Shown: positions 2,927 through 18,239 of the stretch, one piece after another | How positions within the stretch are numbered: position 1 is the stretch's first letter | Layout: each line of letters begins with the position of its first letter | Assembly (NCBI RefSeq): GCF_004214895.1 | Contig: NZ_CP035952.1 | Coordinates: 558,001-622,000, forward strand | Direction: 5' to 3' | Origin: Pseudomonas tructae | GTDB taxonomy: Bacteria > Pseudomonadota > Gammaproteobacteria > Pseudomonadales > Pseudomonadaceae | DNA: 64,000 bases | Notes under the pieces: model-generated | What the model was told of the DNA's origin: nothing | The model's database searches: none | Seen by the model: the letters and a program-made list of their open reading frames with translations, nothing else | Made by a program: the position numbers and the translations under genes

Positions 2927-5206
2927 ATGCTCAATACGCTGCGCAAGATCGTCCAGGAAGTTAACTCCGCCAAGGATCTCAAGACGGCGTTGGGGATCAT
3001 TGTGTTGCGTGTCAAAGAGGCCATGGGCAGTCAGGTCTGCTCGGTGTACCTGCTCGACCCCGAGACCAACCGTTTCGTGTTGATGGCCACCGAAGGCCTG
3101 AACAAGCGCTCGATCGGCAAGGTCAGCATGGCGCCCAACGAGGGCCTGGTCGGCCTGGTGGGTACCCGCGAAGAGCCGCTGAACCTGGAAAACGCCGCCG
3201 ACCACCCTCGGTACCGCTACTTCGCCGAAACCGGCGAAGAACGTTTTGCCTCCTTCCTCGGTGCGCCGATCATCCACCACCGCCGCGTGGTCGGGGTGTT
3301 GGTCATCCAGCAAAAGGAGCGGCGCCAGTTCGACGAGGGCGAAGAAGCCTTCCTGGTAACCATGAGCGCGCAGTTGGCCGGGGTTATCGCCCATGCCGAG
3401 GCCACCGGTTCGATCCGCGGCCTGGGCCGCCAGGGCAAGGGTATCCAGGAGGCCAAGTTCGTCGGCGTACCCGGTTCACCCGGTGCTGCGGTGGGCAAGG
3501 CGGTGGTCATGTTGCCACCGGCTGACCTCGATGTGGTGCCGGACAAGAGCGTCGATGACATCGACGCCGAGCTGAAACTGTTCAACAACGCCCTGGAAGG
3601 GGTGCGCGAAGACATGCGCAACCTCTCCGCCAAGCTCGCCACCCAATTGCGCCCGGAAGAGCGTGCGCTGTTCGACGTCTACCTGATGATGCTCGACGAC
3701 GCCGCCCTGGGCGGAGAAGTGGTGCAGGTGATCAAGACCGGTCAGTGGGCCCAGGGTGCGTTGCGCCAGGTGGTGGGCGAGCATGTCAATCGCTTCGAGC
3801 TGATGGACGACGCCTACCTGCGCGAGAGGGCTTCGGACGTGAAGGATCTGGGCCGGCGATTGCTGGCCTACCTGCAGGAGGCCCGTCAGCTGTCGTTGGT
3901 CTATCCCGACAACACCATTCTCATCAGTGAAGAACTGACCCCGGCGATGCTCGGCGAAGTGCCGGAAGGCAAGCTGGTCGGCCTGCTCTCGGTACTGGGC
4001 TCGGGCAACTCCCACGTCGCCATCCTGGCCCGGGCCATGGGCATTCCGACGGTCATGGGCCTGGTCGACCTGCCGTACTCCAAGGTCGACGGCATCGACA
4101 TGATCGTCGATGGCTACAAGGGCGAGGTCTACACCAACCCCAGTGACGTGCTGCGCAAGCAGTACGCCGAAGTGGTCGAAGAAGAGCGCCAGCTGGCCCA
4201 GGGCCTGGATGCTCTGCGCGAACTGCCGTGTATCACCCTCGATGGCCACCGCATGCCGCTGTGGGTCAACACCGGCCTGCTCGCCGATGTCGCCCGCGCC
4301 CAGCAACGTGGCGCCGAAGGCGTCGGCCTGTACCGCACCGAAGTGCCGTTCATGATCAACCAGCGCTTCCCCAGCGAAAAGGAACAGCTGGCGATCTACC
4401 GCGAACAACTGGCGGCCTTCCACCCGCTGCCGGTGACCATGCGCAGCCTGGATATCGGCGGCGACAAGGCGCTGTCGTACTTCCCGATCAAGGAAGACAA
4501 CCCGTTCCTGGGCTGGCGCGGCATTCGCGTCACCCTCGACCACCCGGAAATCTTCCTGGTGCAGACCCGCGCCATGCTCAAGGCCAGTGAAGGCCTGAAC
4601 AACCTGCGCATCCTGCTGCCGATGATTTCCGGTATCCACGAACTCGAAGAAGCCCTGCACCTGATCCACCGGGCCTGGGGCGAAGTGCGCGACGAAGGCA
4701 CCGATGTGCCGATGCCGCCGGTGGGGGTGATGATCGAAATCCCCGCTGCGGTGTACCAGACCCGCGAGCTGGCACGCCAGGTGGACTTCCTCTCGGTCGG
4801 TTCCAACGACTTGACCCAGTACCTGCTGGCGGTTGACCGCAACAACCCGCGAGTCGCCGACCTCTATGACTACCTGCACCCGGCGGTGCTCCAGGCCCTG
4901 CAGAACGTGGTGCGCGATGCCCACGCCGAAGGCAAGCCGGTGAGTATCTGCGGTGAGATGGCCGGTGATCCGGCGGCGGCGGTGCTGTTGATGGCCATGG
5001 GTTTTGACAGCCTGTCGATGAACGCCACCAACCTGCCCAAGGTGAAGTGGATGTTGCGCCAGGTCAGCCTGAGCAAGTCCAGGGAGTTGCTGGCCCAGGC
5101 CATGGGCATCGACAACCCGCAAGTTATCCACAGCTCGCTGCAGCTGGCCCTGAAGAACCTGGGCCTGGCGCGGATGATCGGCCCCGGAGTTGGCAAGGCC
5201 CTTTGA
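2927..5206 (+). CDS. ptsP: PtsP, phosphoenolpyruvate-protein phosphotransferase of the nitrogen PTS (EI-Ntr)
   Basis: 759 residues. It passes phosphate from PEP to NPr (PtsO) and on to PtsN, a regulatory cascade that senses nitrogen and PEP status. Order of domains: N-terminal GAF (about 15-150), PEP-utilising N-terminal domain (from about 180), swivelling phosphohistidine domain with SGNSHVAILAR (His near residue 363), then the TIM-barrel PEP-binding domain with GSNDLTQYLLAVDRNN and the CGEMAGDP active-site cysteine motif. The ATG at 2927 gives the standard MLNTLRKIVQEV start; the ORF is open further upstream only because it overlaps the rppH end. Likely in an operon with rppH. Confidence 0.97.
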   Translation: MLNTLRKIVQEVNSAKDLKTALGIIVLRVKEAMGSQVCSVYLLDPETNRFVLMATEGLNKRSIGKVSMAPNEGLVGLVGTREEPLNLENAADHPRYRYFAETGEERFASFLGAPIIHHRRVVGVLVIQQKERRQFDEGEEAFLVTMSAQLAGVIAHAEATGSIRGLGRQGKGIQEAKFVGVPGSPGAAVGKAVVMLPPADLDVVPDKSVDDIDAELKLFNNALEGVREDMRNLSAKLATQLRPEERALFDVYLMMLDDAALGGEVVQVIKTGQWAQGALRQVVGEHVNRFELMDDAYLRERASDVKDLGRRLLAYLQEARQLSLVYPDNTILISEELTPAMLGEVPEGKLVGLLSVLGSGNSHVAILARAMGIPTVMGLVDLPYSKVDGIDMIVDGYKGEVYTNPSDVLRKQYAEVVEEERQLAQGLDALRELPCITLDGHRMPLWVNTGLLADVARAQQRGAEGVGLYRTEVPFMINQRFPSEKEQLAIYREQLAAFHPLPVTMRSLDIGGDKALSYFPIKEDNPFLGWRGIRVTLDHPEIFLVQTRAMLKASEGLNNLRILLPMISGIHELEEALHLIHRAWGEVRDEGTDVPMPPVGVMIEIPAAVYQTRELARQVDFLSVGSNDLTQYLLAVDRNNPRVADLYDYLHPAVLQALQNVVRDAHAEGKPVSICGEMAGDPAAAVLLMAMGFDSLSMNATNLPKVKWMLRQVSLSKSRELLAQAMGIDNPQVIHSSLQLALKNLGLARMIGPGVGKAL

Positions 5207-5219
5207 TTTTTTGCGGGGA

Positions 5220-5249
5220 ATGTGGGAGCGGGCTTGCCCCGCGATAGCG
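5220..5249 (+). repeat. Single REP element
   Basis: One copy of the Pseudomonas REP (TGTGGGAGCGGGCTTGCCCC followed by GCGATAG) between the convergent ptsP and NRDE genes. It runs up to, and probably into, the stop codon of the NRDE gene. No inverted partner is adjacent. Confidence 0.85.
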
Positions 5250-5996
5250 TCAAACCTGCAAGCACACCTCCCCCAGGTGCCCACCAAACGGCCCAAAACT
5301 GCGCTCCACCAGCTTGCGCCGCCCATCCGCCTCGACAATCAGCACGGTACTGGCCCGCGTCCCGTAGTTCTGGCTGGCAATAAACACGCTCGACAACAAA
5401 CGCTCGGTCCCAAGCCCCACGCCGGTCTCCGGCAGCTCGGTATCCGCCGCCTGCAGGTTATCCCCAAGCAGCTCCAGCAAGCGTTGCGGCTGCGGGTCGG
5501 CCAAATGCTGCTGCAGCCCCGCCCGCGCCTTGAGCAGTTTTGGCCAGGGCGTATCCAGGCCTGCATTGGATAAACCGTAAACGCCCTCAGCCAGCAGACG
5601 TGGGGTGCCTTGCCGGGCATTCAGGTAGCCCAGTTGCCGGTTGTCACCTACCAGTAGATTGAACCCCGAATACTGCCGGCTGCGGCTGGCCACCTGATCC
5701 AGGTATGCCTCGACACTCAGCTCGCTCTGCAGGAATGCCGCCACCAGTTCGCCTCTGGAGCGTGTGCCCAGGGCCTGCTGCGGGTCGCGAATATTGGTCA
5801 GCGCGGCGAACCGTCCGGCCGGACCTACGCCCAGCCACGTGCCTCCGGCTTCAAGGTCACGTCCGGCATAGACGCCCGGGGCATTCTCCCACGACGCCAG
5901 GGCCTGGGTCGGGCGTGCATAGAACTCGTCGCGGTTGGCCGCAACGATCAGGGGCCGGGCATGTCCGGGCCGCCAGGCGAAGACGATCAGGCACAT
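5250..5996 (-). CDS. NRDE-family (TANGO2-like) protein
   Basis: 248 residues, beginning MCLIVFAW, with Cys2 exposed after Met removal as in Ntn-hydrolase-like proteins, and the eponymous NRDE motif at residues 21-24. A TNIRDP stretch and a GGTWLG motif follow, as in the family. Eukaryotic TANGO2 homologues have been linked to haem handling; the bacterial role is not settled. No signal peptide or membrane segment is visible, so cytosolic. It converges on ptsP and diverges from the TauE/SafE gene. Confidence 0.8.
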   Translation of the reverse strand: MCLIVFAWRPGHARPLIVAANRDEFYARPTQALASWENAPGVYAGRDLEAGGTWLGVGPAGRFAALTNIRDPQQALGTRSRGELVAAFLQSELSVEAYLDQVASRSRQYSGFNLLVGDNRQLGYLNARQGTPRLLAEGVYGLSNAGLDTPWPKLLKARAGLQQHLADPQPQRLLELLGDNLQAADTELPETGVGLGTERLLSSVFIASQNYGTRASTVLIVEADGRRKLVERSFGPFGGHLGEVCLQV

Positions 5997-6088
5997 AGGG
6001 GGTCCTTTGTGTTTTCCTCACTTTATCTTCACTAGAGCCACAGGCCTACCTTCCGTTACCATGCCGGACTGAATTTACGGGGGCGACA

Positions 6089-6871
6089 ATGGAATTCGTG
6101 CTCTATCTGGCGCTGGGCGCCTGTGCAGGCGTGCTGGCCGGGTTGTTCGGCGTCGGTGGCGGCATCATCATCGTGCCGGTGCTGGTGTTCAGTTTCACCC
6201 TGCAAGGCTTCGACGCCTCGGTGCTGACCCACCTGGCGGTGGGGACTTCGCTGGCGACCATTGTCTTCACCTCGGTCAATGCCATTCGCGAGCACCACCG
6301 CAAAGGCGCGGTGCAGTGGCCGATTTTCGTCTGGATGACCTTGGGCATCTTGGTGGGTGCCGGTATCGGCGCCAAGACTGCCTCGGCGATCCAGGGCCCG
6401 ATGCTGCAAAAGATCATTGGTGTGTTTGCCCTGGTGATCGCAGCGCAGATGGCCCTGGACCTCAAGCCCAAGGCCAGCCGTGGCATTCCCGGCAAGCCCG
6501 GGCTGACTGTCGCCGGTAGCGTGATCGGCTGGGCCTCGGCGATCTTCGGCATTGGCGGCGGTTCGCTGACCGTGCCGTTCCTGACCTGGCGCAGCCTGCC
6601 CATGCAGCAGGCGGTGGCGACGTCATCGGCTTGTGGTTTCCCGATTGCCGTGGCCAGCGCCCTGAGTTTCATCTGGCTGGGCTGGCATGACCCGCACCTG
6701 CCGGCGCACAGCCTGGGTTTTGTGTACCTGCCGGCGCTGCTGGGCATTGCCTTGACCAGCATGTTTTTCGCCCGCTTCGGCGCGCGCCTGGCGCATAAAC
6801 TGTCGCCACGCTTGCTCAAACGGCTATTTGCCGCGCTGTTGTTCTGCGTCGGCCTGAGCTTTTTGCTTTAA
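6089..6871 (+). CDS. TauE/SafE family sulfite/anion exporter
   Basis: 260 residues with seven to eight predicted membrane helices. Two internal repeats each carry the glycine-rich GVGGG/GIGGG motif ([13 protein letters not shown] near residue 20 and [13 protein letters not shown] near residue 152), diagnostic of the TauE/SafE family. Family members export sulfite, sulfoacetate or related organic anions; the substrate here cannot be assigned. It lies 14 bases upstream of lgt in the same direction, an arrangement also seen in other Pseudomonas genomes. Confidence 0.88.
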
Positions 6872-6885
6872 CGAGAGGAGTCACC

Positions 6886-7695
6886 ATGCTGCCTTACCCG
6901 CAGATCGATCCAGTGGCCGTGGCCCTGGGTCCGCTGAAAATCCATTGGTACGGCCTGATGTATCTGGTCGGCATCGGCGGCGCCTGGTTGCTGGCCTCGC
7001 GTCGCCTCAATCGCTTCGATCCGACCTGGAGCCGCGAGAAACTCTCCGACCTGGTGTTCTGGCTGTCGATGGGGGTGATTGTCGGTGGCCGCCTGGGCTA
7101 CGTGCTGTTCTACGACCTGCACGCCTACCTGGCCAACCCGGCGCTGATCTTCGAGGTGTGGAAGGGCGGCATGTCGTTCCATGGCGGTTTCATCGGCGTG
7201 ATGCTGGCGGCCTTGTGGTTTGGCAAGCGCAACAACAAGTCGTTCTTCGAACTGATGGATTTCGTCGCGCCGCTGGTGCCGATCGGCCTGGGCGCCGGGC
7301 GTATCGGCAACTTCATCAACGCCGAGCTGTGGGGCAAGGCCACCGACGTGCCTTGGGCCATGGTCTTTCCGCCGTTCAGCGACCCGGCCCAGTTGCCGCG
7401 TCACCCGTCGCAGCTGTACCAGTTCGCCCTGGAAGGTGTGGCGTTGTTCCTGATCCTGTGGCTGTACTCGCGCAAACCGCGCCCGACCATGGCGGTTTCC
7501 GGCATGTTCGCGCTGTTCTACGGGATCTTCCGCTTCATCGTGGAGTTCGTGCGGGTACCCGATGCCCAGCTTGGCTACATCGCCTTTGGCTGGTTGACCA
7601 TGGGTCAGTTGCTCTGCGTGCCGATGATCCTCGGTGGTATCTTCCTGATCTGGTGGGCCTACAACCGCAAACCTACGGCCAAGGCCGCCGTTTGA
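6886..7695 (+). CDS. lgt: Prolipoprotein diacylglyceryl transferase
   Basis: 269 residues. Lgt transfers diacylglycerol from phosphatidylglycerol to the lipobox cysteine of prolipoproteins, the first step in lipoprotein maturation in the inner membrane. Visible family signatures: [10 protein letters not shown] near the N-terminus, [11 protein letters not shown], the Lgt signature [15 protein letters not shown], and RHPSQLYQ. About seven membrane helices. The ATG has a clear upstream GAGAGGAG. It is followed by thyA after 47 bases, the common lgt-thyA pairing. Confidence 0.97.
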
Positions 7696-7742
7696 ATTTC
7701 CACGGCAGGGCGATCCCCTGCCGTCCTAGCTACAGGTAAGCC

Positions 7743-8714
7743 ATGAAACAGTATCTAGATCTGGTCCGCGACGTGATCGAAAACGGCACCCTGCAGGGTA
7801 ACCGTACCGGCATCCGCACCATCAGCCTGCCGGGCGCCATGCTGCGCTTCGACCTGCAGAAGGGCTTCCCGGCCATCACCACCCGCAAGCTGGCGTTCAA
7901 GTCGGCGATCGGCGAGATGGTCGGTTTCCTGCGCGGGGTGAAGAACGCTGGCGAGTTCCGCGAGCTGGGCTGCAAGGTCTGGGACCAGAACGCCAACGAA
8001 AACGCCCAGTGGCTGGCCAACCCGTTCCGCCAGGGTCATGACGACCTCGGCGAAATCTACGGCGTGCAATGGCGCCAGTGGCCGGCCTACAAGCGCATCC
8101 CACTGAGCAACCCGGCTGCCATCGAACTGGCCAAGAGCCAGGGCTTCCAGCAGATCGCCCAGGCCGAAGAAGATGGCGAAGCCTTCGTCGTGCTGTACAA
8201 GGCCATCGACCAGATCCGCCAGTGCATCGACACCATCCACAACGACCCGGGCAGCCGGCGCATCCTGTTCCACGGTTGGAACTGCGCCCAGCTCGACGAG
8301 ATGGCCCTGCCGCCGTGCCACTTGCTGTACCAGTTCCACCCCAATGTCGAGACCAAGGAAATCTCCCTGACCCTCTACATCCGCTCCAATGACCTGGGCC
8401 TGGGCACTCCGTTCAACCTCACCGAAGGCGCCGCTTTGCTGTCGCTGATGGGCCGCCTGACCGGCTACACGCCGCGCTGGTTCACCTACTTCATCGGTGA
8501 TGCGCACGTCTACGAGAACCACCTGGACATGCTCAATGAGCAGCTCAAGCGCGAGCCGCTGGCGGCGCCGAAGCTGGTGATCAATGAGCGTGTGCCGGAG
8601 TTCGCCAAGACGGGCGTGTACGAGCCAGAGTGGCTGGAGAAGATCGAACCGAGCGACTTCAGCCTCGAAGGCTACGAGCACCACGCGCCGATGACGGCGC
8701 CGATGGCGGTCTGA
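7743..8714 (+). CDS. thyA: Thymidylate synthase ThyA
   Basis: 323 residues. It methylates dUMP to dTMP using methylene-tetrahydrofolate. The active-site region reads [12 protein letters not shown], with the catalytic Cys at about residue 192; the upstream arginine pair ([11 protein letters not shown]) binds phosphate, and the [13 protein letters not shown] and HVYENHLD segments are also typical. The protein is longer than the 264-residue E. coli enzyme because of an insert around residues 85-150 (region containing [12 protein letters not shown]), normal for pseudomonads. Its folate partner folA lies about 12 kb away in this window. Confidence 0.97.
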
Positions 8715-8739
8715 GTTCTAACTGTCTGAATATGTAACT

Positions 8740-8811
8740 GTGGGAGCGGGCTTGCCCCGCGATAGCGATGTAACTGATAAATCGCTTCGCGGGGCAAGCC
8801 CGCTCCTACAG
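8740..8811. repeat. REP inverted pair (BIME) after thyA
   Basis: Two REPs in head-to-head orientation: GTGGGAGCGGGCTTGCCCC and, inverted, GGGGCAAGCCCGCTCCTACA, separated by a short linker that itself contains the related ATCGC boxes. It lies between convergent thyA and cadR and could fold as a long hairpin that may act as a bidirectional transcription barrier. Confidence 0.9.
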
Positions 8812-8820
8812 GTACCTCAA

Positions 8821-9264
8821 TCAGTGCCCGTGGCTTCTGCCCACATGTGAAGGCTCCGCCTCTGGCGCCGTCACCGCACCATTGACCTCAAGATGCTGCA
8901 GGATCGAGCACTGAACCTCCTGGGGATGACAGTGCTGGCGCAGTTCCAGCAGTTGCGTTTGTAGCGCTTGCAGCCCATCGATGCGCGCCTTGACGTGCTG
9001 GATGTGCTCGTCGATCAACGCATTGACGCTTTCGCACTGGTCTTCCGGGCTGTCGCGCAGGCGCAGCAGGCTGCGGATTTCTTCCAGGGTCATGTCCAGG
9101 GTGCGGCAGTTGCGGATGAAGGTCAGGCGCTCGACGTGGGCCTGGGTGTACATCCGGTAGTTGCCCTCGCTGCGCGCCGGCTCCGGCAGCAAGTTTTCCC
9201 GCTCGTAGTAACGGATGGTTTCCACCGCGCAATCGGTGGCCTTGGCCAGTTCTCCGATCTTCAT
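8821..9264 (-). CDS. cadR: CadR, MerR-family Cd(II)-responsive regulator
   Basis: 147 residues. N-terminal winged helix-turn-helix (MKIGELAKATDCAVETIRYYE), dimerisation helix from about 80 to 110, and a C-terminal metal loop. Cys77, Cys112 and Cys119, and the C-terminal His140, His145 and His147, sit at the positions described for P. putida CadR, which distinguishes it from ZntR or PbrR. I start at the ATG at 9264; the ORF continues upstream through the operator but that segment is the divergent promoter. It represses and, with Cd(II), activates cadA from the shared operator. Confidence 0.95.
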   Translation of the reverse strand: MKIGELAKATDCAVETIRYYERENLLPEPARSEGNYRMYTQAHVERLTFIRNCRTLDMTLEEIRSLLRLRDSPEDQCESVNALIDEHIQHVKARIDGLQALQTQLLELRQHCHPQEVQCSILQHLEVNGAVTAPEAEPSHVGRSHGH

Positions 9265-9287
9265 CTGCAAATACCTCGACAAGTGGC

Positions 9288-9318
9288 TTGACCCTATAGT
9301 GGCTACAGGGTGTTCACT
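9288..9318 (+). promoter_or_regulatory. MerR-type cadA promoter with CadR operator
   Basis: A TTGACC -35 box at 9288-9293 and a weak TTCACT -10 at 9313-9318 are separated by 19 bp, the over-long spacer typical of MerR-regulated promoters. The spacer contains the near-perfect dyad ACCCTATAG-TGG-CTACAGGGT (9291-9311). It lies 23 bases from the cadR start and 28 bases before cadA, so one operator can serve both divergent genes. Confidence 0.88.
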
Positions 9319-9346
9319 TGGCAACAGGACATTTAAGGATGAACCC

Positions 9347-11581
9347 ATGAATCAGCCTGTCAGCCACACCCCCGGTAAAGACCCCCACGATCATGCCAAG
9401 CATGAGCACGCCCACAGCTGCTGTTCACACGATGCCGCGCCGGCCCTGGTGCAGTTGAGTGAAGCCAGCAGTGCCGGCGCGCGTTTGAGCCGTTTTCGCA
9501 TCGAGGCCATGGATTGCCCGACCGAACAGACCCTGATCCAGAACAAGCTGGGCAAGCTGGCGGGGGTCGAGCAGCTGGAGTTCAACCTGATCAACCGCAT
9601 CCTCGGCGTGCGTCATACCCATGCCGACACCGTCGCCATCGAGCAGGCGGTCGCCTCGCTGGGCATGCAGGCCGAGCCCCTGAGCGATTCCTCCGAGGAA
9701 GCTGCCGCTGCCCCTGCGCCGGTGAAAAAGCACTGGTGGCCGCTGGCATTGGCCGGTGTGGCGGCGTTGGGCGCCGAAGCCATTCACTTCGCCGAGCTTG
9801 CGCCTTCATGGGTGGTGGCGCTGGTCGCCCTGGTGTCGATCCTCAGTTGCGGCCTGGGCACCTACAAGAAGGGCTGGGTCGCCCTGAAGAACGGCAACCT
9901 CAATATCAATGCGCTGATGAGCATCGCCGTGACCGGTGCGGTGCTGATCGGCCAGTGGCCGGAAGCGGCCATGGTCATGTTTCTGTTTACCGTCGCCGAG
10001 CTGATCGAGGCGCGCTCGCTGGACCGCGCGCGCAATGCCATCGGCGGGTTGATGCAGTTGAGCCCGGACCTTGCCACGGTGCAGCAGGCCGATGGCCAAT
10101 GGCGCGAGCTGGACGTCAAGCAGGTCGCGTTGGGTGCCCTGGTGCGTGTGCGTCCCGGCGAGCGCATCGGCCTGGATGGTGAAGTGGTCAGCGGCCAGTC
10201 GAGCATCGACCAGGCGCCGATCACCGGCGAGAGCCTGCCGGTGGAGAAGGGCCCGGGCGACAAGGTGTTCGCCGGGACCATCAACCAGGCCGGTGCGCTG
10301 GAGTACCGGGTGAGTGCTGCGGCCGGGCAATCGACCCTGGCGCGGATCATCAAGGCGGTGGAAGAAGCCCAGGGCGCGCGGGCGCCGACCCAGCGCTTCG
10401 TCGACCAGTTCTCGCGCATCTACACCCCGGCCGTGTTCGCTTTCGCCCTGGCGGTAGCGGTGATTCCGCCGCTGTTCATGGCCGGCGCCTGGTTCGACTG
10501 GATCTACCGCGCCCTGGTGCTGCTGGTGGTGGCCTGCCCTTGTGCCCTGGTGATTTCTACGCCGGTGACCATCGTCAGCGGCCTGGCCGCAGCCGCGCGC
10601 AAAGGCATCCTGGTCAAGGGCGGGGTGTACCTGGAAGGCGGGCGCAAGCTCGACTTCCTGGCCCTGGACAAGACCGGCACCATTACCCACGGCAAGCCGG
10701 TGCAAACCGACTATGAAGTGCTCGAACCGCTATTCCAGGACCGTGCCCAGGCGCTGGCGGCCAGCCTCGCTGACCGCTCCGACCACCCGGTATCACGCGC
10801 CATTGCCGTGTTTGCCATTGAGCAAAAGCTGCCCCTGAGCGAGGTTGCAGCCTTTGAAGCCCTGGCAGGCCGTGGTGTGCGCGGCGAAATTGACGGTGAG
10901 CTGTATCACCTGGGCAACCATCGCCTGGTCGAAGAACTGGGCCTGTGCTCGCCGCAGCTCGAAGCCCGGCTCGATACGCTGGAGCGCCAGGGCAAGACCG
11001 TGGTGCTGCTGCTCGACAAGTCCGGCCCGCTGGCGCTGTTCGCCGTGGCCGACACGGTCAAGGACAGCAGCCGCGAGGCAATTGCCGAACTGCATGAGCT
11101 GGGTATCAAGACTGTCATGCTGACCGGCGACAATCCGCACACGGCCCAGGCCATTGCTGCCCAGGTCGGCATCGATCAGGCCCATGGCAACCTGCTGCCG
11201 GCTGACAAGCTCAAGACCATCGAAGACCTGTATGCCCAGGGCCATCGGGTCGGCATGGTCGGTGACGGCATCAACGATGCGCCGGCACTGGCCCGCGCCG
11301 AGATCGGTTTTGCCATGGCCGCAGCCGGTACCGACACCGCGATCGAGACCGCCGACGTGGCGCTGATGGATGATGACTTGCGCAAAATCCCGGCCTTCGT
11401 CAGGCTCTCGCGTCAGAGTGCGGCGATCCTGACCCAGAACATCGTCCTGGCCCTGGGGATCAAGGCAATCTTCCTGGCGGTGACCTTCGCCGGCATGGCA
11501 ACTATGTGGATGGCGGTATTCGCCGACATGGGCGTGAGTTTGCTGGTGGTCTTCAACGGCCTGCGATTGCTGCGTAAATAG
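9347..11581 (+). CDS. cadA: CadA, P1B-type Cd2+/Zn2+ exporting ATPase
   Basis: 744 residues. N-terminal His/Cys-rich tail (HDHAKHEHAHSCCSH), a heavy-metal-associated domain whose metal site reads MDCPTE, then about eight membrane helices. The ion-binding motif CPC is at about residues 397-399, the phosphorylation motif is DKTGT, the P1B-specific HP dipeptide is in SDHPVSRAI, and the hinge is GDGINDAPAL. This set is typical of the Zn/Cd/Pb subgroup. The ATG at 9347 follows AAGGAT; upstream in-frame codons overlap the operator. Expressed from the CadR promoter. Confidence 0.96.
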   Translation: MNQPVSHTPGKDPHDHAKHEHAHSCCSHDAAPALVQLSEASSAGARLSRFRIEAMDCPTEQTLIQNKLGKLAGVEQLEFNLINRILGVRHTHADTVAIEQAVASLGMQAEPLSDSSEEAAAAPAPVKKHWWPLALAGVAALGAEAIHFAELAPSWVVALVALVSILSCGLGTYKKGWVALKNGNLNINALMSIAVTGAVLIGQWPEAAMVMFLFTVAELIEARSLDRARNAIGGLMQLSPDLATVQQADGQWRELDVKQVALGALVRVRPGERIGLDGEVVSGQSSIDQAPITGESLPVEKGPGDKVFAGTINQAGALEYRVSAAAGQSTLARIIKAVEEAQGARAPTQRFVDQFSRIYTPAVFAFALAVAVIPPLFMAGAWFDWIYRALVLLVVACPCALVISTPVTIVSGLAAAARKGILVKGGVYLEGGRKLDFLALDKTGTITHGKPVQTDYEVLEPLFQDRAQALAASLADRSDHPVSRAIAVFAIEQKLPLSEVAAFEALAGRGVRGEIDGELYHLGNHRLVEELGLCSPQLEARLDTLERQGKTVVLLLDKSGPLALFAVADTVKDSSREAIAELHELGIKTVMLTGDNPHTAQAIAAQVGIDQAHGNLLPADKLKTIEDLYAQGHRVGMVGDGINDAPALARAEIGFAMAAAGTDTAIETADVALMDDDLRKIPAFVRLSRQSAAILTQNIVLALGIKAIFLAVTFAGMATMWMAVFADMGVSLLVVFNGLRLLRK

Positions 11582-11588
11582 AGGATGT

Positions 11589-12452
11589 ATGCTGAGTTCC
11601 GAGTTGAAAGCCTTCTACATGGTTGCCCGCCTGGGCAGCATTACCCTGGCGGCGAAGAAACTCGGGCTCAGCCAACCAACGGTGACCACGCAGATCCGCA
11701 ACCTGGAAAGCCAGTACGCGGTCGAACTGTTCTACCGCGGCGGCCGCCGCCTGACCCTCAGTGATGACGGCGCGAGGCTGCTGCCGATGGTCAAGGCCCT
11801 GCTGCAGCAGGAAGCCGATATCGAGTTCTTCCTGCGCAACAGCGGCCAGGGTCAAGGCAGCCTGCGCATCGCCGCCACGGCGCCTTACTACATTCTCGAC
11901 CTGGTAAAGATCTTCCGCGAACGCCTGCCGCAAGTGGAGGTGTCGGTGGAAATCGGCAACTCCCAACAGGTGCTGGAACTGCTTGAAGACTATCGGGTAG
12001 ACCTTGCGGCCTCGTCGCAACTGGTCGAGGACACGCGTCTGGTGCGGCGGGTGCTGGGTACCGATCCGCTGGTGGTGGCGGTGCACCGCAACCATGTGTT
12101 GGCCAGTCATGAGTCCATTCCGTTGTCGGCGCTGGCCGGGCATTGCCTGCTGGTGCGTGAGCAGGGCTCGACCACGCGCAAGTTGACCGAGCAGATGCTG
12201 GAAGCGGCGGGGGTGAAGGTGGGGTCGCTGCTGGAGATCGGCAGCCGCGAATCGATCCGCGAGGCGGTGTTGCGCAACATCGGCATCAGCATCATTGCCC
12301 GCCATGAAGTGCCGCATAACCCTGAGCTGCGGGTGCTGAGCCTTGAGGGGGCGCCGCTGATGCACGAGTACCTGTATTGCCTCAAGGAGCGGCGTCAGGC
12401 GCGGTTGCCGGCGGCTTTTCTGGGCCTGGCCCAGGAAGTGTCAGCATTGTAG
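11589..12452 (+). CDS. LysR-family regulator, likely of the phosphonate cluster
   Basis: 287 residues. N-terminal helix-turn-helix (FYMVARLGSITLAAKKLGLS, then QPTVTTQIRNLE) and a type 2 periplasmic-fold effector domain. It lies immediately before a phosphonate importer/degradation cluster, and its sequence resembles the aminoethylphosphonate-associated LysR group (TIGR03339 type), so I infer it controls the genes at 12641-18239. Oddly, it starts only 7 bases after the cadA stop in the same direction, so cadA readthrough may contribute to its expression. No obvious promoter of its own. Confidence 0.85.
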   Translation: MLSSELKAFYMVARLGSITLAAKKLGLSQPTVTTQIRNLESQYAVELFYRGGRRLTLSDDGARLLPMVKALLQQEADIEFFLRNSGQGQGSLRIAATAPYYILDLVKIFRERLPQVEVSVEIGNSQQVLELLEDYRVDLAASSQLVEDTRLVRRVLGTDPLVVAVHRNHVLASHESIPLSALAGHCLLVREQGSTTRKLTEQMLEAAGVKVGSLLEIGSRESIREAVLRNIGISIIARHEVPHNPELRVLSLEGAPLMHEYLYCLKERRQARLPAAFLGLAQEVSAL

Positions 12453-12520
12453 GAGCGGGCTTGCCCCGCGATAGCGATGTCACTGATAAATCGCTATCGC
12501 GGGGCAAGCCCGCTCCCACA
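12449..12520. repeat. REP inverted pair between LysR gene and phosphonate operon
   Basis: Two inverted REPs flanking the linker ATAGCGATGTCACTGATAAA; the arms extend into ATCGCTAT/ATAGCGAT, giving a long dyad. The linker is nearly identical to that of the BIME at 8740-8811 (GATGTAACTGATAAATCGC), so the two are copies of one element. Confidence 0.9.
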
Positions 12521-12545
12521 GGTGGCGTTGCATTACACCAAAATC

Positions 12546-12565
12546 TGCCTATACCACTATCGGCA
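12546..12565. promoter_or_regulatory. Candidate LysR operator before the phosphonate importer
   Basis: A 20-bp interrupted dyad, TGCC-N-ATA-N4-TAT-N-GGCA, centred 85 bases before the importer ATPase start. Both half sites match exactly (7 of 7 positions each side). Position and form suit an operator for the LysR protein encoded just upstream, but no binding data exist and the link is inferred. Confidence 0.5.
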
Positions 12566-12640
12566 ACTTTTGCTCCCCCGCCACACAACCTTCGCATTGC
12601 CTCCCTAGCATGACCCTCATTCGTTCGATGAGGTCCTGCC

Positions 12641-13705
12641 ATGAACACTCCAGTCGCAAACCCGGGCGCACACATGAAAGTGCGCGGTATTCATAAGCGC
12701 TTTGGCGCATTTACCGCCCTGCACGATGTTTCCCTCGACGTTGCCGCGGGTGAGCTGGTGTGCCTGCTGGGCCCGTCCGGCTGCGGCAAGACCACCCTGT
12801 TGCGTTGCATTGCCGGCCTCGAACGCCAGGACCGCGGCACCTTGTACATCGGCGAGCGCGACATATCCGAGCTGCCGCCCCAAGCCCGGGATTACGGCAT
12901 TCTGTTCCAGTCCTACGCTCTGTTCCCCAACCTCACCGTTGAAGCCAACATCGCCTACGGCCTGGCCGGCAGCGGTCGTGACGAAGTGCGTCAGCGGGTG
13001 GCGCAGATGCTTGAACTGGTGGGCCTGATCGGTAGTGAAAAAAAGTACCCCGGCCAACTGTCCGGCGGCCAGCAGCAGCGTGTGGCGCTGGCCCGCGCCC
13101 TCGCACCGGCACCGTCACTACTGCTGCTCGACGAGCCGATGTCGGCCCTCGACGCCCGGGTTCGCGAACACCTGTGCAGCGAACTGCGCCAACTGCAACG
13201 CCAGCTCGGCATCACCACCCTGATGGTCACCCACAACCAGGACGAAGCCATGTTGATGGCCGACCGCATTGCGGTGATGAACAACGGTCAGGTCGAGCAG
13301 TACGCCACCCCGCAGGACATCTACGACAAGCCGGCCACGCCATTCGTTGCCGAGTTTGTCGGCCAGGGCAACTGGCTGCCTTTCCAGCGCCACAGCGACA
13401 GCCATGCCCAGGTCGGTGCGCTGAACATGCGCCTGGCCGACGGTGCCAGCCAGGCTCGTAGCGGCCGGCTGTTCTGCCGCCCGGAAGCGATCAGCGTCAA
13501 CCCGCCGGTACATGAAGAGAACCTGTTCCCGGCGCGGGTGCGTGAGATTACCTTCCTCGGCAATCGCTGCCGCATGAGTTTTGAACTCAACGAACTGCCG
13601 GGCCACGCCCTGCTGGCCGAAGTCGCCCCCGAATCGATGCCGCGCCTGGGTTCCCAGGACATCTGGGTGGCCTTGCCGCCGCGCAGCCTGCAGGTGTTTG
13701 CCTGA
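12641..13705 (+). CDS. ABC transporter ATPase, 2-aminoethylphosphonate type (PhnT2-like)
   Basis: 354 residues. Walker A GPSGCGKTT at residues 44-52, Q-loop FQSYALFPNL, signature LSGGQQQRVALARAL from about residue 140, Walker B LLLLDEPMSALDA and a C-terminal TOBE-like domain. It is of the Fbp/Pot-like ATPase family; together with the fused permease, the binding protein and the downstream HpnW/HD genes it fits the putative aminoethylphosphonate importer group (TIGR03265 type). Operon with the permease (1-base gap). The alternative ATG at 12674 would remove 11 residues. Confidence 0.85.
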   Translation: MNTPVANPGAHMKVRGIHKRFGAFTALHDVSLDVAAGELVCLLGPSGCGKTTLLRCIAGLERQDRGTLYIGERDISELPPQARDYGILFQSYALFPNLTVEANIAYGLAGSGRDEVRQRVAQMLELVGLIGSEKKYPGQLSGGQQQRVALARALAPAPSLLLLDEPMSALDARVREHLCSELRQLQRQLGITTLMVTHNQDEAMLMADRIAVMNNGQVEQYATPQDIYDKPATPFVAEFVGQGNWLPFQRHSDSHAQVGALNMRLADGASQARSGRLFCRPEAISVNPPVHEENLFPARVREITFLGNRCRMSFELNELPGHALLAEVAPESMPRLGSQDIWVALPPRSLQVFA

Positions 13706-13706
13706 G

Positions 13707-15431
13707 ATGGCGGCGCCACTCGCCATGCCGATCGCCCACGCGAAGGCAGCCCAGCGCTCTGGTGTTTCACTGGGTGATCGACTGTTCGTGGTCGGCGGCA
13801 AAGGGTTGCTGCTGCTTTTTCTCACCGTGGCGGTGTTGATTCCACTGCTGGCGATTTTCTGGCGCGGCTTTAGCAGTGATGCCGGCCAGGGCGGCGGCCT
13901 GGTGGCCGCCCGCGAATTGTTCGCCAGTGCCAACTTCCACTGGCTGCTGGGCAATAGCCTGAAGGTCTCGATCAGCGTTGCAGCCATCGTCGTTCCGCTG
14001 GCTTACCTGTTCGCTTATGCCCTGCAGCGCACGCTGATCCCCGGCAAGCGAATCTGGCGTGGTATTTCACTGCTGCCGCTGCTGGCGCCGTCGATGCTGC
14101 CAGCTATCGCCCTGGTTTATCTGTTCGGCAACCAGGGCCTGCTGCGTGGGCTGCTCAGCGACAATATCTATGGCTTCTGGGGCATTGTCCTTGGCGAAGC
14201 CATCTACACCTTCCCCCATGCGCTGATGATCCTGCTTTCGGCCCTGTCGCTGGCCGATGCGCGGCTGTTCGACGCAGCTTCGAGCATGGGTGCCGGGCCT
14301 TGGCGCGCATTTCACAGCATCACCTGGCCTGCGACCCGGCAGGCGGTGTTCGCCGCGTTCTGCCTGGTGTTCACACTGACCATCACCGACTTTGGCGTGC
14401 CGGTGGTGGTGGGTGGCGACTATCAGGTGCTGGCGCTGGAGGCCTACAAGGCCGTGGTCGGCCAGCAGCAGTTTGGCCGCGGTGCCTTGATCGGTATGGT
14501 CTTGCTGGTGCCGGCACTGCTCAGTTTCGCCGTCGATGCCTGGCTGCGTCGGCGCCAGGGCGATTCGATGAGCGGCCGGGCCCAGGTGTTCCAGCCACAG
14601 CCATCGCGTACTCGCGATGCCTGCTTCATGGCCGTGGTGATCCTGATTTGCGCAGTGCTGTTGCTGGTGGTGGGCATGGCGGTGTACTCATCGCTGGTCA
14701 AGTTCTGGCCCTATAACCTGTCGCTGTCGCTCAAGCACTATCAGTTCGACGAAACCGCCGGTGGTGGCTGGCTGGCCTACCGCAACAGCCTGACCATGGC
14801 CCTGGGCACGGCGTTGATCGGCAGTGCGGTGATCTTCACCGGCGCCTACCTGATGGAAAAAACCAAGGGCCAGCGCAGCCTGAACCTGCTGCTGCGTCTG
14901 CTCAGCTTCGTGCCGATGGCGGTGCCAGGGTTGGTGCTGGGGCTTGGCTACGTGTTCTTCTTCAACCTGGCCAGCAACCCGCTGCATGTGTTCTACGGCA
15001 GCATGGCGTTGCTGGTGGTGTGCACCATCGCCCACTACCTGACCACCGCGCAGATGACCGCGACCACCGCCCTGCGCCAGCTCGATGGCGAGTTCGAAGC
15101 CGCTGCGCTGTCGCTCAAGGCGCCGCTGTACCGGCACTTTCTGCGGGTCACCGTGCCGATCTGCCTGCCGGCGCTGCTCGACATCATCCGCTACCTGTTC
15201 GTCTCGGCCATGACCACGGTGTCGGCGGCGATCTTCCTCTACAGCCCGGACACCATCCTTGCCGCCGTCGCCGTGCTGAACATGGACGATGCCGGCAACG
15301 TCGGCGGCGCTGCGGCAATGTCGACCCTGATCCTGCTCACCAGCGCCACCGTTTCGCTGCTCCTGGCCTGGGCCTCGCGCGGCCTGTTGCAACGCTCCCA
15401 AGCCTGGCGCCAGCGTGCGCCGGGTCACTGA
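13707..15431 (+). CDS. ABC transporter permease, fused double-domain (PhnU2-like)
   Basis: 574 residues with about twelve membrane helices: two permease halves in one chain. Each half has an EAA-type coupling motif, DAASSMGAGPWRAF in the first and EAAALSLKAPLYRHFL in the second, so one subunit can replace the usual dimer. Such fused permeases occur in iron(III) and in aminoethylphosphonate importers (TIGR03262 type); the neighbours favour the latter. The start is the ATG at 13707 directly after the ATPase stop; the frame is open upstream only inside the previous gene. Confidence 0.88.
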   Translation: MAAPLAMPIAHAKAAQRSGVSLGDRLFVVGGKGLLLLFLTVAVLIPLLAIFWRGFSSDAGQGGGLVAARELFASANFHWLLGNSLKVSISVAAIVVPLAYLFAYALQRTLIPGKRIWRGISLLPLLAPSMLPAIALVYLFGNQGLLRGLLSDNIYGFWGIVLGEAIYTFPHALMILLSALSLADARLFDAASSMGAGPWRAFHSITWPATRQAVFAAFCLVFTLTITDFGVPVVVGGDYQVLALEAYKAVVGQQQFGRGALIGMVLLVPALLSFAVDAWLRRRQGDSMSGRAQVFQPQPSRTRDACFMAVVILICAVLLLVVGMAVYSSLVKFWPYNLSLSLKHYQFDETAGGGWLAYRNSLTMALGTALIGSAVIFTGAYLMEKTKGQRSLNLLLRLLSFVPMAVPGLVLGLGYVFFFNLASNPLHVFYGSMALLVVCTIAHYLTTAQMTATTALRQLDGEFEAAALSLKAPLYRHFLRVTVPICLPALLDIIRYLFVSAMTTVSAAIFLYSPDTILAAVAVLNMDDAGNVGGAAAMSTLILLTSATVSLLLAWASRGLLQRSQAWRQRAPGH

Positions 15432-15470
15432 TTGTCTCTACCCACTTGCACCGTTCAAAGGAGTCGCATC

Positions 15471-16496
15471 ATGTTCAAGCCACTTGCTCTTGCCGCTGCC
15501 GTCCTCACTGCATTCAGCGTGCAGGCCACTGCCGCCAACACCCAGCTGACGGTCTACACCGCGCTTGAAGCCGAACAGCTCAAGAGCTACAAGCAGGCCT
15601 TCGAGAAGGCCAACCCGGACATTGAAATCAAGTGGGTGCGTGATTCCACCGGCATCATCACCGCCAAGCTGCTGGCCGAAAAAGATCGCCCGCAAGCCGA
15701 TGCGGTCTGGGGTCTGGCAGCGTCGAGCCTGGCGATCCTCGACCAACAGGGCATGCTGCAAAGCTATGCCCCGAAAGACCTTGGCAAGATCGGCGGCAAC
15801 TACCGCGATGCCGCCAACCCGCCGGCCTGGGTGGGTATGGACGTCTGGGCGGCGACCATCTGCTTCAACACCATCGAAGCCGAAAAGCAGGGCCTGAGCA
15901 AGCCGGTGAGTTGGCAGGACCTGACCAAGCCTGAGTACAAGGGCAAGATCGTCATGCCTAACCCGGCGTCTTCGGGCACCGGCTTCCTGGACGTCAGCGC
16001 CTGGCTGCAGACCTTTGGTGAGAAGCAGGGCTGGGCGTACATGGACGGCCTGCACCAGAACATCGGCCAATACGTTCACTCCGGTTCCAAGCCGTGCAAG
16101 CTGGCGGCGGCCGGTGAGTTCCCGATCGGTATCTCCTTCGAATACCCGGCCGTGCAGCTCAAGCGCCAGGGTGCGCCGCTGGACATCGTCTTGCCGAAGG
16201 AAGGCCTGGGCTGGGAGATCGAGGCCACCGCGGTGATCAAGGGCAGCAAGAATGAAGACGCAGCCAAGCGCCTGGCCGACTTCTCGGCAAGCCCGGCGGC
16301 CATGGAACTGTACAAGGAAAACTTCGCCGTGCTGGCCCAGCCGGGCATCGCCAAACCACAGACCGAACTGCCGGCCGACTACGAGCAGCGCCTGATCAAG
16401 AACGACTTCGCCTGGGCGTCGAAGAACCGCGACAGCATCCTGGCCGAGTGGCGCAAGCGCTATGACGGCAAGTCGGAGAAGGTGGCGCAGCAGTAA
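15471..16496 (+). CDS. Periplasmic substrate-binding protein, 2-aminoethylphosphonate type (PhnS2-like)
   Basis: 341 residues. A cleavable signal peptide (MFKPLALAAAVLTAFSVQA, cleavage near residue 22) precedes an extracellular solute-binding family 1 fold beginning TQLTVYTALEAEQ. A typical AAGEFPIGISFEY segment contributes to the ligand site. The ATG at 15471 follows AAAGGAG. Family members near phosphonate genes form the TIGR03261 group. It delivers substrate to the fused permease encoded 39 bases upstream. Ligand not proven: aminoethylphosphonate, a hydroxylated or a methylated derivative are all possible. Confidence 0.85.
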   Translation: MFKPLALAAAVLTAFSVQATAANTQLTVYTALEAEQLKSYKQAFEKANPDIEIKWVRDSTGIITAKLLAEKDRPQADAVWGLAASSLAILDQQGMLQSYAPKDLGKIGGNYRDAANPPAWVGMDVWAATICFNTIEAEKQGLSKPVSWQDLTKPEYKGKIVMPNPASSGTGFLDVSAWLQTFGEKQGWAYMDGLHQNIGQYVHSGSKPCKLAAAGEFPIGISFEYPAVQLKRQGAPLDIVLPKEGLGWEIEATAVIKGSKNEDAAKRLADFSASPAAMELYKENFAVLAQPGIAKPQTELPADYEQRLIKNDFAWASKNRDSILAEWRKRYDGKSEKVAQQ

Positions 16497-16500
16497 CAGC

Positions 16501-16535
16501 ATCGCGGGGTAGGAGCGGGCTTGCCCCGCGATAGC
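16501..16535. repeat. REP with overlapping half-copy
   Basis: ATCGCGGGG is followed directly by TAGGAGCGGGCTTGCCCCGC and GATAGC, so the short inverted copy (ATCGCGGGG) pairs with the CCCCGCGAT at the other end. It lies between the binding protein and the FAD oxidase and ends 20 bases before the latter's start. Confidence 0.8.
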
Positions 16536-16554
16536 ATTCTTGAAGGAACCTCAA

Positions 16555-17682
16555 ATGACCGATCTACTCATCGTCGGCGCCGGCATCCTCGGCCTGTCCC
16601 ATGCCTACGCCGCTGCCCGGCGCGGGCTCAAGGTGCGGGTCTTCGAGCGCAGCGCCACACCCCTGGGCGCTTCGGTGCGCAACTTCGGCCAGGCACTGGT
16701 TACGGGTCAACCGCCAGGCCAGATGCTCGAACTGGCCAAGGCCAGCAGCGGCATCTGGAAGCACTGGGCGCATCAGGCCGGCTTCGAGCTCAAGGCCAAC
16801 GGCTCGCTGCTGTTTGCCCGTACCGCGCTGGAGCTGGAACTGCTCGAAGCCTTCTGCGCCGAGCGTGCGCAAGCACATGACTACAAGATCGAGCTGCTCA
16901 GCGGCGCCGCCCTGAACGACCTCTACGGCGGCCAGTTCCGTCACCATCGCGCCGCCTTGCGCGGGCTGCAAGACCAGCAGTTGTATTCGCGCGAGGCGCT
17001 GCCGAGCCTGATCCACTTCCTGCAGCGGGCGTTGGGTGTACAGTTTCACTTCTCCACGCTGGTGCGTGGTATCGAACCCGGTCGCGTTTCGACCACGGCG
17101 GGGGAGTTCAGCGCCAGGCAGGTCGTGGTCTGCTCCGGTCACGACTATCAGACCCTGCTCGCTGAACCTATCGCTGCCTTGCAACCGCAGGTCTGTCGCT
17201 TGCAAATGTTGCGCGCCCGGCCACGCTTCAAGCTCGATCTGCAGCACGCACTGCTCACCGGCCTGAGCTGCGTGCACTACGGCGCCTTCGCCGATTTGCC
17301 CCAGGCCCAGGCACTCAAAGCGCAACTGCAGGCCAACAGCCCGCACCTGCTGGAGCACGGCATCCATCTGCTGATCAGCCCTACGCCCCACGGTGAGCTG
17401 ATCATCGGCGACTCCCACGCCTATGGCAGTGATGCATCACCCTTCAACGCCGAACAGGTCGACAACTGGTTGATCGAGCTGGCCGAGCAGACCCTGGGCG
17501 GGCGCATCGAGGTGGTCGAGCGCTGGCAGGGCGTCTATGGTTCTGGCGGGCCGGGGCCGTTTTCCCTGCTGCAGGTCGCGCCGGGAGTCAGTGCCGCGCT
17601 GATGCACAGCGGCGTCGGCATGAGTGTCGGCCCGGCCCTGGCCGAGCAGCATATCGCCCGTTTGCTGGAGGAGATCGACTAA
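16555..17682 (+). CDS. FAD-dependent amine oxidoreductase of phosphonate clusters (HpnW/TIGR03364 type)
   Basis: 375 residues. An N-terminal dinucleotide fold LLIVGAGILGLSHAYAAARR binds FAD, followed by a D-amino-acid-oxidase/sarcosine-oxidase-like body (RNFGQALVTGQPPG near residue 41) and a C-terminal GVGMSVGPALAE FAD-closing motif. Proteins of this group recur beside phosphonate genes; relatives have been reported to oxidise 2-aminoethylphosphonate or its N-methyl derivative to the aldehyde. Which reaction occurs here is unknown. The ATG at 16555 has AAGGAACC upstream; the TTG at 16540 lies inside that ribosome site. The HD gene starts 2 bases downstream. Confidence 0.85.
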   Translation: MTDLLIVGAGILGLSHAYAAARRGLKVRVFERSATPLGASVRNFGQALVTGQPPGQMLELAKASSGIWKHWAHQAGFELKANGSLLFARTALELELLEAFCAERAQAHDYKIELLSGAALNDLYGGQFRHHRAALRGLQDQQLYSREALPSLIHFLQRALGVQFHFSTLVRGIEPGRVSTTAGEFSARQVVVCSGHDYQTLLAEPIAALQPQVCRLQMLRARPRFKLDLQHALLTGLSCVHYGAFADLPQAQALKAQLQANSPHLLEHGIHLLISPTPHGELIIGDSHAYGSDASPFNAEQVDNWLIELAEQTLGGRIEVVERWQGVYGSGGPGPFSLLQVAPGVSAALMHSGVGMSVGPALAEQHIARLLEEID

Positions 17683-17684
17683 CC

Positions 17685-18239
17685 ATGGCTACAGCCGAAC
17701 AGATTGTCAGCGACGTCTTCGCCTTGTATCAGCAGCATGGTGATGAAGACTACATCGGCGAACCGGTTTCGCAGCTCGAGCATATGTCCCAGGCGGCGCA
17801 GCTGGCATTGGCCGAGGGCTATGACGATGAAGTGGTGCTGGCGGCGTTCTTCCATGACATCGGCCACATCTGTGGCGGCGCCAAAGGCAACATGGGTGGT
17901 TATGGTGCGGTCAGCCACGAACGGGTAGGCGCCAACTACCTGCGTCGTTGTGGCTTTAGCGAGCGCTTGGCCAAACTGGTGGAGTATCACGTCGAGGCCA
18001 AGCGCTACCTGACCTTGCGTCAGCCAGGTTATTACCAGCGCTTGAGCGAGGCCAGCCGACGCACCCTGGCGTACCAGGGCGGGGTGATGAGCGAGGCCGA
18101 GGCCGATGCCTTCGAGCAGGACCCGCTGTGTGAAGTGAGCCTGCGCATGCGTCAGTGGGATGAACTGGCCAAGGAAATGGATGTGCCGGTCATCGATCTG
18201 CAGTTGCTCAAGGGCAAGGCCCTAAAGCTCTTGCACTAG
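17685..18239 (+). CDS. HD-domain phosphonate-associated protein, PhnZ/TmpB-like diiron oxygenase
   Basis: 184 residues. All expected diiron ligands of the PhnZ/TmpB group are present: His33, His57-Asp58 (FFHDIGH), His78, His102 and Asp159. The substrate-side Tyr23 and Glu26 (YIGE), which in PhnZ form the gate over the iron site, and the EAKRYL segment with Lys106 are also kept. PhnZ and TmpB use O2 to cleave the C-P bond of 1-hydroxyphosphonates. It corresponds to the 'phosphonate degradation HDIG' family (TIGR03276). It overlaps the convergent GTPase gene by 18 bases. Confidence 0.88.
   Translation: MATAEQIVSDVFALYQQHGDEDYIGEPVSQLEHMSQAAQLALAEGYDDEVVLAAFFHDIGHICGGAKGNMGGYGAVSHERVGANYLRRCGFSERLAKLVEYHVEAKRYLTLRQPGYYQRLSEASRRTLAYQGGVMSEAEADAFEQDPLCEVSLRMRQWDELAKEMDVPVIDLQLLKGKALKLLH

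Follow-up and report, generated by a model that had tools for sequence, protein, structure and literature searches.

What does a PhnZ-type oxygenase do in an operon that carries an importer and an amine oxidoreductase and no recognised hydroxylase? The question is raised by a 64,000-nucleotide stretch of Pseudomonas tructae DNA (positions 558,001-622,000 of a single 5.69 Mb contig, hereafter the window), in which six co-directional genes (window positions 11589-18239) encode a LysR regulator, the PhnT2, PhnU2 and PhnS2 subunits of an importer, a flavin adenine dinucleotide (FAD) amine oxidoreductase of the PbfD family (also called HpnW) and an HD-domain protein. All six, the three importer subunits included, exceeded the curated cut-offs of NCBI phosphonate-cluster models in a profile scan (Table 1), which bears out the gene set that an earlier note on this DNA had read here. 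We propose, with a probability of about 0.63, that these genes form a scavenging operon for relatives of aminoethylphosphonate (AEP) with two parallel enzyme branches, of which the HD branch needs no hydroxylase. The proposal is built on the gene content, the protein families, the active-site residues, the predicted fold, the presence of PhnX elsewhere in the genome and the occurrence of each enzyme without the other, and from these we infer the substrates, the transport of hydroxy-compounds, the regulation and the catalytic activity.

According to this proposal, the LysR protein would sense AEP-like phosphonates and PhnS2-T2-U2 would import them, presumably with hydroxy-AEP among them; AEP importers of the PF13343 type and PhnWX-dependent use of AEP are described in Pseudomonas putida BIRD-1 (PMC8316502; PMC9311074). 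PbfD would act on N-methyl-AEP, and possibly on AEP, and its product phosphonoacetaldehyde would be split into acetaldehyde and phosphate by the unlinked PhnX; the PhnW encoded beside PhnX would take plain AEP. In the other branch, the HD enzyme, with a predicted Fe(II)/Fe(III) centre, would use O2 to turn imported (R)-1-hydroxy-2-aminoethylphosphonate into glycine and phosphate with no hydroxylase required; this compound is presented in PMC8154272 as a natural product that PhnW and PhnX do not handle properly. Such an operon would probably widen the phosphorus diet, one enzyme likely serving N-methylated phosphonates and the other those that are already hydroxylated. The PbfD enzymes reported in PMC10590968, one of which (from A. 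baumannii) is annotated as TIGR03364, turn N-methyl-AEP into phosphonoacetaldehyde and do the same less efficiently with AEP. The window FAD enzyme is likewise a TIGR03364 protein in a genome with PhnX, and its substrate is predicted by this likeness.

The predicted oxygenase and its genome

By its residues the HD protein is a predicted mixed-valent diiron oxygenase of the PhnZ type. The diiron ligand set H...HD...H...H...D is present in it and in all 90 Pseudomonas-type rows, and H33, H57, D58, H78, H102 and D159 (window HD numbering) are invariant in an alignment of 46 sequences. The substrate-gating loop YxxE reads Y23-I-G-E26, each residue being found in 89 of the 90 rows, and the protein shares its predicted fold with PhnZ, with 44-46% identity in structural alignments. 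In a second, smaller tree that included 16 PhnZ homologues it groups with PhnZ, apart from the TmpB clade (split support 100/99); an earlier tree, which suffered from long-branch rows such as L167 and L050, left the clade of PhnZ plus the Pseudomonas proteins undecided (approximately unbiased test, p-AU 0.299). The window protein thus has the clade, all the metal and gate residues and the predicted fold in common with the PhnZ of the PhnY*-PhnZ oxidative AEP pathway (HF130_AEPn_1), but it has no recognised hydroxylase beside it and sits instead with a FAD oxidase and an importer. It also differs from the TmpA-TmpB pathway, both in the separate position of TmpB and in the lack of a TmpA relative in its genome.

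As the earlier note had it, the window contains no hydroxylase, no PhnW or PhnX and no PbfA-like gene, and for these 64 kb profile matches and tblastn agree. None of the PhyH, TauD or class-III aminotransferase (the PbfA fold) matches of the genome lies there, nor any PhnX match above its cut-off, and tblastn at E 1e-3 returned nothing in the window for PhnW, PhnX, PhnA, TmpA, PhyH or two TauD queries; PhnY found a single 26% identical aldehyde-dehydrogenase-like stretch, distant from the operon. The absence of PhnW and PhnX does not extend to the whole genome, where a bona fide phnW-phnX pair is located at about 2,257,890-2,259,930 of the same contig, some 1.7 Mb from the operon, with a LysR gene alongside. 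Its PhnW scores 552.6 bits (cut-off 400.8) and its PhnX 322.9 bits (cut-off 220), so that an enzyme consuming phosphonoacetaldehyde is present.

Neither pbfA nor tmpA, for which the earlier note had proposed genome-wide searches, was recognised. All 12 class-III aminotransferases of the genome fall below the 525-bit cut-off for PbfA (the best score among those shown was 252.7), and no TmpA relative was found at E 1e-10 with a query that itself scores 542.8 bits against NF049936. PhnJ of the C-P lyase was not found in the genome either. One PhyH gene (L009) and two or more TauD-like genes do exist outside the window. Among the TauD-like proteins, L135 is a taurine dioxygenase by its score of 507.6 bits against a cut-off of 313, L136 matches more weakly (240.8 bits), L137 appears by eye to be a fusion protein (118.7 bits to PF02668) and L138 reaches 24.7 bits.

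Distribution of the two enzymes in the genus

We surveyed 149 genomes of the genus, this one included, reading the neighbourhoods by six-frame profile matches and tblastn. A strong HD match (at least 130 bits) was present in 90 genomes, and 87 were counted after setting aside G041, G042 and G146, whose HD proteins are 31-34% identical to that of the window and have no importer or PbfD beside them, although the G041 and G042 proteins pass the family threshold; G041 also carries an importer-PbfD operon at another locus (L171) and was counted as PbfD only. With 83 genomes carrying PbfD, both enzymes occurred in 75, HD only in 12, PbfD only in eight and neither in 54. The pairing of both genes, importer-linked or not, is therefore beyond chance (Fisher p about 4e-20, kinship ignored).

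The operon arrangement is common in the genus. Importer and PbfD accompany the HD gene in 69 of the 90 neighbourhoods and four more also have phnX inside the operon, while the remainder consists of two with PbfD and HD at a contig end, nine with importer and HD and no PbfD, three lone HD genes and the three of the other HD type. Altogether seven loci (L046-L049, L170, L171 and L172, the last two being PbfD-only) have phnX within the operon, ahead of the gene for the binding protein, and most genus loci read have no gene at that spot. The 80 named loci nearest to PhnS2, all from Pseudomonas except one metagenome bin labelled Paucimonas, showed both enzymes in 54, HD only in 14, PbfD only in six and neither in six (one of these ended by the contig).

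PhnX above its cut-off was found in every PbfD genome (83/83), in 85 of the 87 HD genomes, so that two have HD without PhnX, and in eight of the 54 with neither enzyme. The constant company of PhnX with PbfD in this sample, not shared by HD, favours parallel branches because a series would not predict it and two branches with a common importer would. Co-occurrence of HD and PbfD fits a shared operon and importer, and alone it would fit a series too.

Each enzyme also occurs without the other. In a 92-row protein tree of the importer (leaving out nine of 101 genus loci without a full ATPase-permease pair in the sequence available, among them the three lone HD genes), absence of HD with PbfD kept required seven changes and absence of PbfD with HD kept required two, and both kinds are also forced by well supported branches. 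We read these changes as losses, some of the seven possibly being gains. No remnants of the missing gene were detected by tblastn in the nine HD-only, three lone-HD and eight PbfD-only loci. The HD genes of the HD-only and lone loci look to be under selection, with ratios of non-synonymous to synonymous change (dN/dS) of 0.08-0.21 in the nine pairs containing them; the range was 0.05-0.23 across all 13 pairs, synonymous change being saturated in some. The earlier note had taken the FAD enzyme to prepare the substrate of the HD enzyme. This reading is not supported by the phosphonoacetaldehyde that PbfD makes in the published work, by the PhnX of all PbfD genomes or by the occurrence of each gene without the other, all of which suit a pair of parallel branches better than a single series.

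The hydroxylase families were followed through the same genomes. The PhyH gene of P. tructae was considered as a hidden PhnY*; its 25 carriers among the 149 genomes include nine with HD, and its distribution does not track HD (9/87 HD genomes vs 16/62 others). Nor does the presence of any PhyH gene follow HD (55/87 vs 40/62). No TmpA-like gene was found in 37 of the 87 HD genomes, that of P. tructae included, and in 11 both PhyH and TmpA-like genes are missing. With the queries used, no PhyH-, TmpA- or TauD-like gene was found within 8 kb in the 90 genus HD loci, some of which are cut by contig ends. The idea of the earlier note that the importer may feed a PhnZ-type enzyme with an already hydroxylated aminophosphonate is in keeping with this lack of a recognised partner. 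As a separate observation, this PhyH-family oxygenase gene adjoins that of a LuxR-type regulator (L009; L045 at 7,311-8,063), and 16 of its 25 carrier genomes have no PhnZ-type HD.

Competing explanations and published systems

Several observations weigh against the parallel-branch proposal. The three lone HD genes all lack a nearby transporter, which means that the importer is not strictly needed, and two of them are in genomes without PhnX. Three of the eight HD-less rows of the importer tree (L171, L172 and L174) branch deep, so the seven HD changes may include gains, and the co-occurrence counts ignore kinship. TmpA-like genes are enriched in HD genomes (50/87 vs 12/62), and in the few whose coordinates were compared by eye the two genes are about 140 kb apart; we tentatively read this association as shared ancestry. 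The hydroxylase search covered the PhyH, TauD and TmpA families, the PhnY* sequence itself and other families being outside it, and P. tructae does have its PhyH and TauD-like genes. Finally, other relatives of PhnZ are reported in PMC11203657 to favour hydroxymethylphosphonate or trimethyl compounds.

The HD enzyme might have an unlinked hydroxylase partner, perhaps of an unrecognised family, forming with it a dispersed PhnY*-PhnZ route for AEP. The tandem action with hydroxylases described for PhnZ and TmpB (PMC8177086), the PhyH and TauD-like genes and the TmpA enrichment speak for such a partner; we nevertheless regard it as unlikely, as the PhyH gene of this genome is rarer in HD genomes than in the others, some HD genomes lack both the PhyH and the TmpA-like class and AEP is already served by PhnW-PhnX. 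About as unlikely, the HD enzyme could act alone as an oxygenase on some other 1-hydroxyphosphonate, for instance hydroxymethylphosphonate or a 1-hydroxyethyl compound. Such a role would suit the partial substrate tolerance of PhnZ among (R)-1-hydroxyphosphonates noted in PMC10574752, and the weak scores of the window protein against the TmpB model NF049941 (132.4 bits) and the hydroxymethylphosphonate model (117 bits), both below cut-offs of 300, leave the substrate undecided, but the PhnZ clade, the PhnZ-like loop and the aminophosphonate importer alongside point elsewhere.

We consider improbable a series in which the FAD enzyme first takes an N-methyl or amino group off an imported hydroxy-aminophosphonate, leaving a product for the HD enzyme to cleave. 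The two genes are only 2 bases apart and occur together in half of the genomes surveyed, an older TIGR03364 note quoted in PMC10590968 suggested hydroxy-AEP as substrate, and PMC11203657 leaves possible that HpnW supplies PhnHD; however, 12 genomes keep HD only and eight PbfD only, with two and seven changes in the importer tree, and a series does not need the PhnX found in all PbfD genomes. The least credible role for the HD protein seems to be the hydrolysis or detoxification of phosphonoacetaldehyde or of some other product of PbfD, given the full set of oxygenase ligands in every row, the conserved YxxE residues and the 12 genomes that keep HD without PbfD.

The parallel-branch proposal is a variant of a published puzzle, because PMC11203657 describes these genes together in Achromobacter, mentions that TIGR03276 proteins accompany PhnW and PhnX in certain pseudomonads in which PhnY* is missing, and does not settle the functions. 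The clusters of Achromobacter insolitus and A. aegrifaciens hold HpnW, PhnHD, PhnX, an importer and a LysR gene, and their two functions are called a conundrum by the authors (PMC11203657). They share with the window the LysR gene, the PhnSTU importer, the TIGR03364 and TIGR03276 genes and a phnW elsewhere in the chromosome; in contrast, phnX is inside the cluster in Achromobacter and beside the distant phnW in P. tructae, and the Achromobacter HD protein is 30% identical to PhnZ, a value lower than that of the window protein. Among the clusters counted in PMC8154272, phnZ homologues were present in 15 of 1,186 phnWX and 24 of 75 phnWAY clusters, and never with pbfA. These phnWX-pbfA, phnWX-phnZ and phnWAY-phnZ clusters resemble our case in that a hydrolytic AEP pathway, with no hydroxylase, gains an accessory enzyme for hydroxy-AEP. 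The window gene differs in being linked to pbfD and the importer and unlinked from phnWX, and would therefore escape a search restricted to phnZ genes beside phnWX. We found no report in the open-licence literature of a genus-wide six-gene operon or of the separate loss of its two enzymes.

If the proposal is right, the HpnW/PhnHD conundrum would be settled as two parallel branches, and many pseudomonads would be predicted to draw on more kinds of phosphonate than expected from the PhnWX pathway. Many phnZ-like genes that are now taken as evidence of oxidative AEP breakdown in genomes and metagenomes would then report the use of a different, little-measured natural phosphonate, should the HD enzyme act alone on imported hydroxy-AEP. 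A broader idea, which we hold only tentatively and at somewhat less than even odds, is that PhnZ-type oxygenases mostly occur without a hydroxylase in pseudomonads, and perhaps in other groups too, as a portable and self-sufficient module that converts environmental (R)-1-hydroxy-AEP straight to glycine and phosphate and can be joined to any importer or pathway (PbfD/PhnX, PhnW-PhnX, PhnWYA or C-P lyase). In that case, hydroxy-AEP would be a common phosphorus source on land and phnZ would be no marker of oxidative AEP breakdown.

Operon layout, relatives outside the genus and neighbouring genes

The six genes are separated by 188, 1, 39, 58 and 2 bases, and an opposite-strand open frame that overlaps the end of the HD gene closes the row. 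A scan with a simple Pho box consensus (up to three mismatches) gave four matches in the window, where 3.97 are expected by chance, and none in the operon; the phnWX stretch had one match, away from the genes.

Table 1. Genes of the operon, in window positions, with profile scores in bits
Gene product	Position	Strand	Model, score and cut-off
LysR regulator, aminoethylphosphonate-associated	11589..12452	+	TIGR03339, 405.7 (cut-off 341.1)
PhnT2, ABC transporter ATPase	12641..13705	+	TIGR03265, 525.7 (cut-off 457.7)
PhnU2, double permease (start taken as the first ATG behind PhnT2)	13707..15431	+	TIGR03262, 764.5, frame scanned from 13704 (cut-off 593.25)
PhnS2, periplasmic aminophosphonate-binding protein (ATG at 15471)	15471..16496	+	TIGR03261, 540.1, scanned from 15477 (cut-off 392.75); PF13343
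FAD amine oxidoreductase, PbfD family (HpnW)	16555..17682	+	TIGR03364, 448 (cut-off 285.1); PF01266
PhnZ-type HD-domain oxygenase, last in the row	17685..18239	+	TIGR03276 (phosphonate degradation HD-domain oxygenase), 226.3 (cut-off 214.6)

Outside the genus, 31 genomes had a match and 28 were read (G218, G262 and G342 being left out), yielding 29 HD loci. A TmpA-like gene adjoins HD in 11 of them, one of which also has PhnW, PhnA and PhnY; six have PhnA and PhnY (one PhnY match weak and broken), two lie beside a PbfD-PhnX pair, one is in an importer-PhnW-PhnX operon and in nine no such gene scores above 90 bits. Of the proteins at these loci, both PbfDs and one each of TmpA, PhnA and PhnY were checked against the NCBI models. 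HD relatives were also found in 28 plasmid records, of which four were opened. On the Comamonas plasmid PhnX-PbfD is divergent from HD, and on the Hymenobacter plasmid the HD gene (61% identical) lies between an MFS transporter and a SusC gene. The other two have a TIGR03276-type HD gene within a C-P lyase cluster, at 6989-7537 of L273 (Variovorax sp. SRS16) and at 6989-7549 of L274 (Nostoc sp. ATCC 53789), in the latter between the pathway diphosphatase gene and phnJ. The four opened stretches, whose gene table is incomplete, showed no annotated hydroxylase.

The trio of PbfD, PhnX and HD may have been assembled more than once. In other Proteobacteria, adjacent PbfD and PhnX genes are divergent from or face an HD gene (L154 at 7721-10441, L165 at 8277-10845 and L272 at 4774-7549), and in the trees the L154 and L165 HD proteins are placed apart from the group of PhnZ and the Pseudomonas proteins.

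A second HD type, 32-40% identical, occurs in two Pseudomonas and three same-family genomes (L059, L063 and L143-L145); these loci have no importer or PbfD alongside and a recurrent weak PhnX-like match nearby (27-44 bits). Finally, positions 7743-11581 of the window, between a thymidylate-synthase-like gene and the operon, hold genes for a large P-type ATPase and a MerR-type regulator (names given by eye), and an ATPase-sized gene is found at the same spot in many of the genus loci read.
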